Shown here: positions 39,468 through 43,385 of the stretch, one piece after another
Layout of the letters: each line of letters begins with the position of its first letter
How positions within the stretch are numbered: position 1 is the first letter of the stretch
Assembly (NCBI GenBank): GCA_944380725.1
Contig: CALWIK010000010.1
Coordinates: 1-43,385 of the forward strand
Reading direction: 5' to 3'
From: an uncultured Clostridia bacterium
GTDB lineage: Bacteria > Bacillota > Clostridia > Oscillospirales > Acutalibacteraceae
Length of the DNA stretch: 43,385 bases
Translations under genes and position numbers: made by a program
The notes under the pieces: generated by a model
The model's database searches: none
Seen by the model: only the letters and a program-made list of their open reading frames with translations
Told to the model about the DNA's origin: nothing

Positions 39468-39668
39468 ATGGAAGATAATTTTTTTGATATTCAGCCAAAT
39501 AAACATTTAATATCTCCCTTACCCGAATCTCCTGTTGTAGCTATGGCATACGTTCCTTTTCAAAACCCAACTGAAATTTATTCTGCAGAACAAGGTCTAA
39601 AAAGAGGAACAATCTTTCCTTGCTTAGATAGGCCATTTTATGGTTGTGAGGTGCTAAAACATGGATAG
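39468..39668 (+). CDS. cotJA: Spore coat-associated protein CotJA
   Basis: 66 residues, the CotJA family: hydrophilic start, then AMAYVPFQ, YSAEQGLKRGTIFPCLDRPF with the conserved Pro-Cys and Phe. It belongs to the inner coat in Bacillus, where CotJA is required for CotJC assembly. SD GAGGAAGTG is ahead of the ATG. Its stop overlaps the cotJB start by eight bases. Confidence 0.93.
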   Translation: MEDNFFDIQPNKHLISPLPESPVVAMAYVPFQNPTEIYSAEQGLKRGTIFPCLDRPFYGCEVLKHG

Positions 39669-39921
39669 TCGAGAAAAATTATTAAAGCGCATTGCTTCGT
39701 ATGACTTTGCTATTGTTGAATTAAATCTATTCTTAGACTCCCATCCAAATGACAAAACAGCTAAGTTGAAAATTAACGAATATATTAATAAGTCTAACAA
39801 ATTACGACATGAGTTTGAAATTAAGTATGGTCCATTAGTTGCAACAAGCAAAGGTACCAATCAATGGACTTGGATTTCTAATCCTTGGCCATGGGACAAT
39901 GTTGAGGAGGTTGAAGAATAA
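39661..39921 (+). CDS. cotJB: Spore coat protein CotJB
   Basis: 86 residues with the family pattern IASYDFAIVELNLFLDSHP near the N-terminus and the aromatic C-terminal WTWISNPWPWD. It starts at an ATG inside the end of cotJA (SD GAGGTG seven bases before) and its TAA overlaps the cotJC ATG by one base, so the three are translationally coupled. Confidence 0.93.
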   Translation: MDSREKLLKRIASYDFAIVELNLFLDSHPNDKTAKLKINEYINKSNKLRHEFEIKYGPLVATSKGTNQWTWISNPWPWDNVEEVEE

Positions 39922-40127
39922 TGTGGGTTTACGAAAAAAAATTACAATATCCGATAAATATTAAAAGAACTAATCCTGAATTAGCCAAGATTATAATTAG
40001 TCAATATGGCGGTCCTGACGGAGAACTTGGTGCATCTTTACGCTATTTAAGTCAGCGATTTTCTATGCCATACCCTGAGCTAAAAGCCATATTAACAGAT
40101 ATAGGTACGGAGGAATTAGCACACTGA
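39921..40127 (+). pseudogene. cotJC: CotJC (Mn-catalase-like coat protein), interrupted after codon 68
   Basis: Normal CotJC has about 190 residues; here only 68 are encoded. The retained part is well conserved (MWVYEKKLQYPI, LAKIIISQYGGPDGELGASLRYL, LTDIGTEELAH), with the first dimetal ligands (Glu of DGEL, Glu and His of EELAH), and then stops at TGA. The expected continuation (LEMI...) and the second half of the metal site are missing. The sequence becomes unrelated directly after the CAC codon at 40122-40124, and the recombinase gene begins to read in from the other side ten bases on. No other lesion is seen in the retained portion, so the gene is split by insertion, not decayed. Confidence 0.85.
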
Positions 40128-40136
40128 TGTTGTATC
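40104..40136. other. Probable left attachment site (attL) of the intervening element
   Basis: The boundary between cotJC (GGTACGGAGGAATTAGCACAC, ending 40124) and foreign sequence. Large serine recombinases use sites of about 40-50 bases with a two-base crossover core, so the core should lie within or next to this segment. The matching attR with the rest of cotJC would lie beyond 43385. Confidence 0.5.
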
Positions 40137-41741
40137 TTATTTCATCCTATTATCGGAGCTATCTGGAAGTTTCGGATATAGAATAATCTCAAAGTCATCG
40201 GGAGAATTATGCCATCGTCCGCCTTTATCCTTGGTGTATACCACCTTCTCAAGAACCTGTTTCAACATATCGTTCTTAGCTTTTGGAGTTTTTAAATTTT
40301 TATAAACTTCCAGAAGTTTTTCTATTTTTGGAACTACAATTTTTTTATTTTTATTTCTTGCAATTTCAGTATCTACAAGAGATTCGATAGCCATTTTATC
40401 CTTTTTTAGTTTTTCAAGTTTTTTTGAATTGATAGAGGAACGTTCTAAAAATACTTCAGTAGAATATATCCCTTGTTCAAGCAAGTCATGTAATTTGTCC
40501 ATTTGGGATCTAATTTTCTCTATCTCTTTGTCAAGTCTTTTAATTGCTAGCATCTGCGCATTGATATTTATAGGAGATTTGTTGTTTGATTTCCAACTGA
40601 GCTTATACTCTTTCAGCCATTCTTTCAGGCCTTTTATTATTCTGTCTTCGACATAATAAAGTGCACAACTCACATTATTACAAGTCTTAGCGGCACACAT
40701 TAATGTATCTGGTTGATTTTTTTCTTTGCTGTAAGGTCTGCGAACCATTTTCCTTCCGCATTTACCACAAACAACTATTCCAGCAAGAGAATTTTTAATT
40801 ACTCCGTGTTCACCTATTGGTCTTGGAGGATTTTTAGACATTAGACTCTGAACTAAATCAAATGTTTCCTTTTTTATGATAGGGACATGAAGTCCATCAG
40901 ATAATATGCAATCTTCAGCAGATGCTCGAGGTCTTTCAATTGTTATTTGTCCATTTACAATTTTTTTATTTGCAGGTCTCCAATTCCATCTTATTTTTCC
41001 TATGTAAACGGGATTGATAAGTATATCTCGTATAGTAGATGGAACCCAATCTTTTCTCTTTTTCGCTGGAATTTTCATTGCATTTAACTTATTTGCAATT
41101 AATCCAGTACCTAATCTATTATAAGTACCGTCTTCTTGTAGCTCACCCACAGTGTATAATTCAAATATAAGCTTAACTATCTCAGCTTCTTCTTTGAGTG
41201 GTTCAAGCGTAAATCCCTTATCATTTTCTATTTTCTTTCTTATGTATCCATAAGGCGGTTGATTGGCAACGTATTTACCTTCCTTGACAGAAGCTATACG
41301 GCCTCTTTGCAGCCTTCGATTAATAGTTTTATATTCTCTCCTGCTCATAAAAAGGCCAAACTCAAAGTATTCCTCGTCAAATTCATTATTAGGGTCATAT
41401 ACCTTCACAGGGGTAATAATTTTTGTATCGCTTAGTTGGAAGGTCTGAGCAACGATTCCTTGGTCAATGGTGTTTCCACGTGCAAGACGTTCAACCTCCA
41501 TAACAAGTACCCCGTCCCATATCCCTTGCTCAACTTCTGATAGTAGTTTTTGCATTACTGGACGAGCTGATATAGTTTCTCCAGATATTATTTCTTTGTA
41601 TATACATTTGATATTAAGATGCATTTTTTTAGCAAGTTCAAGTAATGCTCTTTCGTGTCTTATTAATGTCTCACCTTCGCCGCGCAACTCTGCTTCCACA
41701 TCCGAACGTGATTTTCTCAAGTATATGCAATACTGTTCCAT
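40137..41741 (-). CDS. Large serine recombinase (phage integrase type)
   Basis: 534 residues, apparently intact. The resolvase-like catalytic domain (1-150) has the nucleophilic Ser11 with Arg9 in CIYLRKSRSD, GETISARP, and VMEVERLARG with the conserved Arg residues. The recombinase domain (155-270) includes PPYGYIRKK and NPVYIGKIRW. The zinc-ribbon domain (about 305-360) has VCGKCGRKM and the pair CAAKTCNNVSC, and a long coiled coil (about 400-460) is rich in K, E and L. Such enzymes integrate alone and excise with a directionality factor. Start ATG with AAGGAAGG ten bases ahead. The stop codon is ten bases from the broken cotJC. Confidence 0.95.
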   Translation of the reverse strand: MEQYCIYLRKSRSDVEAELRGEGETLIRHERALLELAKKMHLNIKCIYKEIISGETISARPVMQKLLSEVEQGIWDGVLVMEVERLARGNTIDQGIVAQTFQLSDTKIITPVKVYDPNNEFDEEYFEFGLFMSRREYKTINRRLQRGRIASVKEGKYVANQPPYGYIRKKIENDKGFTLEPLKEEAEIVKLIFELYTVGELQEDGTYNRLGTGLIANKLNAMKIPAKKRKDWVPSTIRDILINPVYIGKIRWNWRPANKKIVNGQITIERPRASAEDCILSDGLHVPIIKKETFDLVQSLMSKNPPRPIGEHGVIKNSLAGIVVCGKCGRKMVRRPYSKEKNQPDTLMCAAKTCNNVSCALYYVEDRIIKGLKEWLKEYKLSWKSNNKSPININAQMLAIKRLDKEIEKIRSQMDKLHDLLEQGIYSTEVFLERSSINSKKLEKLKKDKMAIESLVDTEIARNKNKKIVVPKIEKLLEVYKNLKTPKAKNDMLKQVLEKVVYTKDKGGRWHNSPDDFEIILYPKLPDSSDNRMK

Positions 41742-41771
41742 AATTTTTACCTTCCTTGTGGTTTTTATTTA

Positions 41772-41800
41772 ATTATACACTGATATTGGAGCTAAATCAA
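41772..41800 (-). promoter_or_regulatory. SigA-type promoter of the recombinase gene
   Basis: On the minus strand TTGATT (41800-41795), a 17-base spacer and TATAAT (41777-41772). This looks like a vegetative promoter; no SigE or SigK element was recognised ahead of the gene. Confidence 0.65.
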
Positions 41801-41836
41801 TTATATAGGTGCCAAAATAAAAAGGAGGAAACTCAA

Positions 41837-41983
41837 ATGCAAACATTTTTATTAATAGTAATTTTAATTTTGGTAGTAATAAATTTAAGGCAGGCAGATG
41901 AATTAAGGGATCTAGAACGGAAGACCTTAGATGCATTTAAAATAGTCTGCAAAAAATTAAAACAAAACACGGAGGAGAAATGA
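41837..41983 (+). CDS. Small membrane protein of the phage element
   Basis: 48 residues, not recognised: one hydrophobic helix (TFLLIVILILVVI) at the N-terminus, then a charged, helical tail. AAAGGAGG stands eight bases ahead of the ATG at 41837; the frame is open further upstream, but that start would overlap the recombinase promoter. The next gene begins one base after its stop. Confidence 0.65.
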   Translation: MQTFLLIVILILVVINLRQADELRDLERKTLDAFKIVCKKLKQNTEEK

Positions 41984-41984
41984 A

Positions 41985-42220
41985 ATGATGGAATTGATTG
42001 AAAAAATTTACTTAACGCCGCCAGATAATGAGGCAATTCCAGTAACGGAATGTTTTTTTGTAGTGAAAGTATTTATGTTGGCGATGAATTTTACATCTTA
42101 GATGGATTTAATTGCTGTGAAGATTGCCTGGACAAGTATTTTAAAGTTGTTGCAGAGCTGCCGGATTGGGAAGCCGAAAAGGCGGATTTAGAACATCATG
42201 ATGTGGAGGTGAATCGATAA
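41985..42220 (+). pseudogene. Cys-rich small phage protein (Zn-finger-like), frame broken at a T7 tract
   Basis: Read straight, the frame from ATG 41985 stops after 38 residues at 42101. A -1 shift at the run of seven T (42053-42059) continues for another 55 codons to the TAA at 42218-42220, just before the next gene. Only the shifted product joins the first cysteine pair (ECFFC) to the later CCEDC, giving a CxxC...CxxC zinc-finger layout. So the two parts once formed, or still form by slippage on T TTT TTT, a single protein of about 77 residues. Single-base loss, a sequencing error in the homopolymer, and programmed frameshifting are all possible. SD GGAGGAG precedes. Confidence 0.6.
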
Positions 42221-42221
42221 A

Positions 42222-42905
42222 ATGAAAGAAGAAAAATCAGTATTTGAAACGCTATTCGAAGTAAATGTAAATGAACATATCGAAAAGAAAAATGCGTTGT
42301 CGTACCTATCTTGGGCATATGCGTGGGCAGAGGTGAAGAAGAGGTTTCCAGAAGCAAATTATAAAGTTTACGAAACGGAGTCTGGATGTATTTACTTTAC
42401 CGATGGAAAAACTTGTTAGGTAAAAACTGGAGTGACGATTGATGGAATTGAGCACATAGAATATTTGCCGATAATGGATTACAAAAACAAGTCGATTCTG
42501 CTTGAAAACGTTACGAGCTTTGATGTGAATAAAAGTATACAGCGCAGCTTAACAAAGGCCTTAGCCCGCCACGGACTAGGTCTTTATTTATACGCAGGAG
42601 AGGATTTGCCAGAAATTGAGATTGAAAAAATTAGTGCAAAAGATGCAAAAATTCTTCAAAATGTGGTAAAAAACTTTGCTGAGCCGGATAAATTGTACGC
42701 TACACTCTTAAAGAGATACAATGTGCGAAGTTTTAAGGAATTAACACTTAAGCAACGAGTTGAAATTTTAGAAGGGCTCGCGGCGTTGCGCTGCCAGTGG
42801 CAGAAAAAGCAAGGTCGACGAGCAGGAAAAGGCACAGAGCAATGCAAACGGAGTGCGCAGTGCGACCATGCCTTTGACCGGGAAAACTTAAGTGCAAAGT
42901 TTTGA
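42222..42905 (+). pseudogene. DUF1071/Sak-like single-strand annealing protein with in-frame TAG
   Basis: The protein resembles phage DUF1071 (Sak) recombinases, which anneal single strands. Residues 1-65 (SYLSWAYAWAEVKKRFPEA, DGKTC) and 67-165 (VKTGVTIDGIEHIEYLP, KSIQRSLTKALARHGLGLYLYAGED) are in the same frame, split by TAG at 42417. Relatives have Trp at this place, so TGG to TAG is the simplest change. Near the 3' end the good reading moves to the +1 frame at about 42790 (AASGRKSKVDEQEK... ending LTGKT and TAA at 42889-42891). If continued in frame, the product ends at 42905. Either a decayed gene or an amber-suppressed one; the shift in frame favours decay. Confidence 0.65.
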
Positions 42906-43372
42906 ATAAGGTAAAAAATTTAGGATGGAAATAAAGTTCACAGTACCGGGGATGCCGCAGGGCAAGCAAAGACCGAGAGTGTGTAGAATTAATGGAAGAA
43001 GTCTTACCTATACGCCAAAGAAGACAATTGAATATGAAAGACTCGTAAGGGCAAGTTATGCAGCCGTTTCTAAAGTGAAATTCGAAAGAAATTTACCGAT
43101 AGAAATTAGTATTCTCGCCCTTTATCCTATTCCTAAATACGCCAGCAAGAAAACAAAAAACCTGATGTTAAATGGCTGTCTTTTACCGACAAAGAAGCCA
43201 GATTCAGACAATACCATCGAAATTATCTTGGATGCATTAAATGGAGTGGCTTATTGTGATGGTGCGCGGGGCGCCGCGTCCGGTGGACGATGAAGGAGCA
43301 CCGCGAACAGGAAGAAATACAGAGCGTTGCGAAGCGCTCCAAGCGAGCAAGGCGACAATATTTCTGACCGGG
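42820..43372 (+). repeat. Two related GC-rich 3'-tail segments (42820-42882 and 43305-43372)
   Basis: Both share GA(G/A)CAGGAA, ACAGAGC and, after a five-base indel, GCGAC.AT and TGACCGGG. In the +1 frame relative to the host gene both encode AT(M/I)(P/F)LTG(K/E) just before the stop. The first copy lies at the 3' end of the annealing-protein gene, the second at the 3' end of the RusA-like gene. Confidence 0.45.
42925..43293 (+). pseudogene. RusA-like Holliday junction resolvase, C-terminus disrupted
   Basis: Phage resolvase of the RusA family. Residues 1-113 match the fold: VPGMPQGKQRPRVCR (basic loop), TPKKTIEYE, and KPDSDNTIEIILDALNGVAYCD with the conserved Asp residues of the active site. 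After GVAYCD, relatives continue with D and a last strand; here the frame enters a GC-rich stretch and ends with GARGAASGGR. The +1 frame there stays open to the TAA at 43376-43378. The active-site region is complete, but the fold lacks its last part, so activity is doubtful. The start is ATG 20 bases after the previous gene. Confidence 0.65.
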
Positions 43373-43385
43373 GAATAAAAAATAT

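Follow-up and report, generated by a model that had tools for sequence, protein, structure and literature searches.

A virus-derived element splitting the catalase gene cotJC of an uncultured Clostridia bacterium looks built for removal at spore formation

The spore-coat manganese-catalase gene cotJC of an uncultured Clostridia bacterium (Acutalibacteraceae) breaks off next to a gene for a large serine recombinase, in a 43,385-bp stretch of DNA (the window) that represents an entire contig (C10; CALWIK010000010.1), coordinate 43385 marking the end of the contig and not that of the inserted element. The locus raises the question whether cotJC has decayed, serves as a mere landing place for phages or is reassembled when spores form, as an earlier note on this DNA had proposed by analogy to the skin element in sigK and SPbeta in spsM. 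The answer reached here is that a prophage in the E65 codon of cotJC is probably excised in the mother cell by its integrase together with a directionality factor, whereby cotJC is rebuilt. The genome (1.08 Mb, 23 contigs) is rated 100% complete with 3.17% contamination.

The split gene and the inserted element

The host operon begins with cotJA (39468..39668, + strand; PF11007, E 2.4e-18), which overlaps cotJB (39661..39921, +; PF12652, E 1.7e-26); both are intact and coupled to the truncated cotJC (39921..40127, +; PF05067 profile positions 1-69, E 3.2e-21), as the earlier note had described. The latter comprises 68 codons plus a stop and is interrupted immediately behind the motif GTEELAH. 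Its stop codon shares the last base of a direct repeat, the remainder being supplied by element DNA, and is separated by nine bases from the convergent recombinase gene. A PF05067 profile search of the genome returned exactly two pieces, one in the window (profile 1-70) and one at C18:3676-4038 (65-198), and no second cotJC copy was found by this search, in which part of the genome was masked. The 3' part of cotJC (G000:C18:3679-4092, locus L004), located outside the window, is preceded by element DNA and begins in frame with the 13-bp sequence GAATTAGCACACT, the attachment-site core, which is present at 40113..40125 (+) in the window and repeated at C18:3679-3691. A 3' fragment starting LEMI behind a direct repeat, as foreseen in the earlier note, is thus present. 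Joined at the repeat, the two halves, both free of internal stops, yield a CotJC open for 201 codons and reading ...DIGTEELAH-LEMIGAI.... The 13-mer has a single occurrence in the window and none in shuffles (0 of 100), and a chance match of 13 bp at such a place has a probability of about 4e-5 (calculated by hand from 54 x 54 start positions over 4^13).

Two genomes of the same genus lack the interruption at this site. G001 has an intact cotJC (205 aa). In G002, matches to the window half (92% over 115 bp) and to the C18 half (91% over 418 bp) follow one another without a break and overlap by exactly the 13 bp of the repeat, which represents the natural uninterrupted site. The halves on C10 and C18 therefore belong together, and the element is, as judged from these comparisons, a precise prophage insertion at the E65 (GAA) codon. 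The CotJC protein matches 1jku and other solved catalases; its metal-ligand residues are presumed from the manganese catalase of L. plantarum.

One end of the intervening prophage occupies 40126..43385 of the window, and the other end corresponds to C18:1-3678. The recombinase gene (40137..41741, - strand) is open and complete for 534 aa, with Resolvase, Recombinase and Zn-ribbon domains (PF00239, PF07508, PF13408) all above curated cut-offs. The protein matches the integrase family phrog_95 (E 5e-99) and SprA/YokA (9dxh, 189 bits) and is the predicted integration/excision enzyme, a large serine integrase. Solved relatives at E <= 0.001 are only SprA of SPbeta and an SprA-SprB fusion; the segment YLRKSR aligns with YLRRSR of SprA and is taken to hold the catalytic serine. 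A sigma-A-type promoter-like site (TTGATT-17-TATAAT; 41772..41800, -), assigned by consensus match only, precedes the gene. An undisturbed phage attachment site (attP) in the form of a dyad is present on the IMG/VR phage contig L230 (64.6-kb record), where no cotJC was found within 10 kb beyond the recombinase. Its integrated sisters L228 and L233 diverge from L230 directly after CGAA (dyad centre determined by hand), which points, as worked out by hand, to the GA of codon 65 as the most likely place of crossover. The attP arms of the window have, again by hand, the same centre as the L230 dyad.

Recurrence of interrupted cotJC

The phenomenon is much wider than the single locus. Among 80 related recombinases from GTDB genomes, all with frames of at least 510 codons, 51 are accompanied by a cotJC fragment no more than 1.5 kb from the 3' end, the cut invariably falling at profile position 59-69; of the other 29, five run into a contig end over that distance, and for one a fragment lies 1.6 kb away. 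In IMG/VR, a cotJC fragment is present on 16 of 68 contigs bearing a related recombinase. PF05067 was found in 119 of 148 genomes related to that of the window (own included), with a partial match in at least 42 of the 148 as counted among the matches listed, some of which may represent other manganese catalases or, e.g., in G105, contig ends. The control gene spoIVA is not split: it was found in 127 of the 148 genomes with one match each, 125 of which cover nearly the whole profile.

The cuts fall into few places. After manual removal of duplicates, 132 of 134 cotJC fragment edges at the loci studied lie in four intervals of 13 to 21 codons each, covering 40% of codons 7-175, with site B over-represented because most loci were gathered through site-B recombinases. 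The cut sites are A (about codon 29-33), B (62-66), C (about 100) and D (about 135), and A, B and D presumably hold or adjoin manganese-ligand motifs. Comparison of 25 recombinases revealed grouping by site (mean bits: A-A 428, B-B 509, D-D 684, C-D 431), with only 69-83 bits on average between the A, B and C/D groups. Site B is also used in genomes in which only distant recombinases were seen (L115, L116, L118). Joins at single-locus junctions, that of the window included, were convincing in 17 of 19 cases. Near-identical recombinases can be oppositely oriented to cotJC (L085 vs L086/L088), and an extra att-like dyad at L085:11542-11956 perhaps reflects a tandem insertion.

Several genomes carry cotJC in more than two pieces. 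Twenty genomes behind recombinase loci were inspected, many of them chosen because cotJC looked multiply cut; 14 show at least three pieces and six show two. Four pieces are present in Blautia parvula NBRC 113351 (a finished chromosome), G152, G161 and G164, and three in Lachnotalea glycerini DSM 28816, Intestinimonas sp. (G150), G151 and G162, the last being the home of the recombinase nearest to that of the window. In Blautia parvula the middle stretch, of roughly 101 kb, carries phage and conjugation-type genes and not dnaA (8 of its proteins scanned). All eight joined genes rejoin in frame to an open CotJC of 180-213 aa (that of G162 ends at a contig edge); shared bases of 2-3 at some junctions carry little weight, since the script picks the best-scoring in-frame join. 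It seems rather likely that cotJC is broken up further than any other sporulation gene so far, that separate serine-integrase families each adopted one conserved codon block, and that in many gut Clostridia each mother cell puts the catalase gene together afresh, as many as three programmed excisions uniting as many as four pieces.

The genome of the window harbours a second split mother-cell gene. Its sigK, cut around AARCIEN/EILM, is in two pieces (G000:C21:1811-2161, L203; G000:C20:269894-270247, L216). A gene for a serine recombinase of 565 aa adjoins the 3' piece, an arrangement that identifies a putative second skin-type element. The recombinase of the sigK element is only distantly related to that of the window (best 87 bits among those compared). 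A genome of 1.08 Mb that retains spoIVA intact next to two split mother-cell genes is unlikely to have abandoned sporulation.

Excision in the mother cell or permanent residence

According to the proposed mechanism, the prophage would integrate via its own large serine integrase into the E65 codon. The integrase would be made in growing cells and, alone, would only integrate. A small directionality factor, encoded at the other end of the element, would be made from a mother-cell (sigma-E/K type) promoter and would reverse the reaction in the mother cell, so that the element is excised and cotJC rebuilt, while the spore would keep the split copy. We infer such excision during sporulation from the following lines of evidence.

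A candidate for the directionality factor is a 58-aa open reading frame (ORF; C18:3473-3649) located at the opposite end of the element, directly ahead of the 3' half of cotJC. By iterated profiles, its family is present in 53 of the 80 recombinase loci; reversing these loci (1.2 Mb) gave 0 matches, as did a search of 30 control loci (103 kb). Of 54 copies, 52 are located 5' of the recombinase. The AlphaFold model consists of a hairpin plus a helix (predicted local distance difference test 83.7), and of 26 family members, at most one is matched by any given Pfam or NCBIfam model. We regard this protein as the putative directionality factor of the element. The smallest elements measure 3,271 bp; that of L044 consists of the candidate gene, the recombinase gene and a two-gene pair. 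This natural minimal element (L044:9600-12436) stems from an Alkaliphilus metagenome-assembled genome, and by eye its gene pair looks like MNT/HEPN. One 5.5-kb contig carries two recombinase/candidate-factor pairs in inverted arrangement (L059:1649-5434).

Promoter-like sites were counted in sets that all include the window; the candidate set comprises 61 loci with 62 copies in all, from which four duplicate loci were dropped and one copy per locus was kept. The mother-cell type site AC-N16/17-CATA is present upstream of 13 of 56 candidate genes (shuffle mean 3.7; 0 of 100 shuffles as high) and of 9 of 31 cotJA genes (1.8; 0 of 100), and of 4 of 80 recombinase genes (4.8; 77 of 100). A strict sigma-A site precedes 4 of 80 recombinase genes (shuffle 0.2) and 1 of 56 candidate genes (0.2). 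In the genome of the window, GTATAGT-15-CATATATT precedes the candidate gene and agrees with 11 of 15 consensus positions. These counts suggest vegetative expression of the recombinase and sporulation-induced expression of the candidate factor, as in SPbeta.

Split fragments show dN/dS ratios (w; nonsynonymous to synonymous substitutions) of 0.03-0.38 for pairs with unsaturated synonymous sites (counting method, own script). The best case suggesting selection while split is the C-site exon of L086/L103 (w 0.29, p 0.009), in which the exon dS of 0.46 is matched by a similar value for the adjacent recombinase (0.37). The pair L088/L089 (w 0.26, p 1e-7; recombinase dS 0.85 vs 0.64) is compatible with selection while split, though the recombinases could be separate arrivals. 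On the strength of these pairs, selection on cotJC in the split state is likely, not proved.

Several observations weigh against developmental excision. The recombinase dS is far below the cotJC dS in L035/L036 (0.03 vs 0.54) and L094/L098 (0.06 vs 0.27), so that these pairs, which look the cleanest, mislead: the elements were inserted recently, and little follows from the intactness of the halves. The 58-aa candidate has no significant sequence match to SprB or any family; its two best PDB ranks in Foldseek are chains of 9dxd, the SPbeta integrase-directionality factor complex, with non-significant E values of 2.4 and 2.8, and the likeness to these chains of 56 and 57 residues, probably SprB as judged by length, is therefore only a hint. 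The strict sigma-E core is not enriched before the candidate gene (3 of 56 vs 1.8), and the window's own cotJA lacks a clear sigma-K or sigma-E site. Blautia parvula possesses a separate intact cotJC besides the four-piece one. Finally, the cotJC halves of the window's genome are on separate contigs, with the middle of the element unassembled.

The strongest rival explanation, which is nevertheless unlikely, regards cotJC as a mere docking site (attB) for ordinary temperate phages or integrating elements using the most conserved codons; the gene would be off in lysogens and return only on phage induction, with no developmental excision. It is favoured by the transfer of elements across species (L035/L036), by the uninserted attP of L230 and by the different integrases of relatives of the window's phage. 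A small phage ORF (42050..42220, +; phrog_10625) has 91% identity to an ORF adjoining a different recombinase in G002. There, the phage genes shared with the window (89% over 523 bp) lie next to that recombinase at site A of cotJC, and on C4 and C15 of the window's genome relatives of these genes adjoin yet another recombinase; phages of one kind hence seem to exchange integrases, and thereby their target. In contrast, every piece of the three- and four-piece genes is open and in frame, mother-cell type sites precede the candidate factor gene, and selection while split is suggested by L086/L103 and compatible with L088/L089. The layout of the skin/SPbeta type claimed in the earlier note stands for precise insertion, repeat and recombinase, with the correction that a number of the elements appear to be mobile and not domesticated.

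An assembly chimera, in which phage contig ends were misjoined to cotJC halves, would be conceivable in a fragmented genome with six Sak matches and is very improbable in view of the same repeat occurring in frame on two contigs and of the same layout in many other genomes, including the finished Blautia parvula chromosome. Most improbable is a decaying, dead cotJC copy: the Sak-type single-strand annealing protein gene (42222..42905, +; PF06378, phrog_659) contains one in-frame TAG (42222-42419, 42432-42905), so that the prophage itself may be defective, but cotJA and cotJB are intact, no other cotJC was found in the partly masked genome and the stop-free halves give a full-length gene when joined. 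A missing 3' half, a second cotJC in the partly masked genome and a broken recombinase, which the earlier note had named as arguing against a rebuilt gene, were not encountered, the 3' half being present and the recombinase open.

Known intervening elements and neighbouring features

In B. subtilis, sprA is expressed vegetatively and sprB is induced during sporulation, and the two suffice for excision of SPbeta according to the cited report (PMC4191935). The cotJC element resembles SPbeta in spsM in its insertion into a sporulation gene and in carrying a large serine recombinase homologous to that of SPbeta (189 bits to 9dxh), and possibly in a vegetative recombinase and sporulation-induced factor, here suggested by promoter counts only. 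It differs in its target, cotJC codon 65, in a candidate factor without significant similarity to SprB and in excision that is presumed here. Skin of C. difficile works in a similar manner, with CD1231/CD1234 (PMC5025042). Skin in sigK of B. subtilis and C. difficile shares with the present case a prophage-like element, a serine recombinase and a split mother-cell gene; the gene is a different one, and the window's genome has a separate sigK split of its own. Intervening elements are also described for gin in gerE of B. cereus and yin in yabG of C. botulinum, the latter from one strain (PMC5595907, PMC10747680). Like gin as portrayed there, some small cotJC elements have no phage genes; unlike gin and yin, given there as one element at one site each, the cotJC elements cut at four sites in several genera. 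Several recombinase elements within one gene are otherwise reported for heterocyst interruption elements (nifD and others), nifD of Rivularia carrying four (PMC4874684); these belong to Cyanobacteria, to other genes and another cell type, and use both serine and tyrosine recombinases according to the source.

Interrupted sporulation genes named in the publications consulted are sigK, spsM, spoVFB, gerE and yabG. Literature searches retrieved no published report of cotJC interruption; that C. difficile phi027 adjoins a cotJC homologue is noted in two papers. By anatomy, the cotJC element represents the skin/SPbeta kind in a new gene and a new multi-site, multi-piece form, with a presumed developmental step. 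The published sporulation cases found concern, as presented there, one element in one gene, and cotJC is a recurrent target across Clostridia, with as many as three cuts and with carriers in culture. The system allows tests of whether phages settle in sporulation genes because excision in the mother cell is without cost to them, and of the order of multiple excisions. Next to this, genomes with split cotJC may be misread as lacking the gene, and the loci provide numerous pairs of recombinase and att site as well as a family of candidate directionality factors.

Among the remaining features of the element, a RusA-type Holliday junction resolvase gene is located near the contig end (42925..43293, +; PF05866, E 6e-20). 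GC-rich stretches at 42780-42905 and 43250-43385 have similar ends (gaccggg), resemble repeats by eye and have apparently invaded the terminal parts of the Sak and RusA genes. Sak genes interrupted by a single in-frame stop are present in the window and among the matches in G001:C6 and G002:C16, and the six Sak matches mentioned above belong to the window's genome. A thiamine pyrophosphate (TPP) riboswitch is located about 3.6 kb downstream of the 3' half of cotJC (L004:7728-7830).

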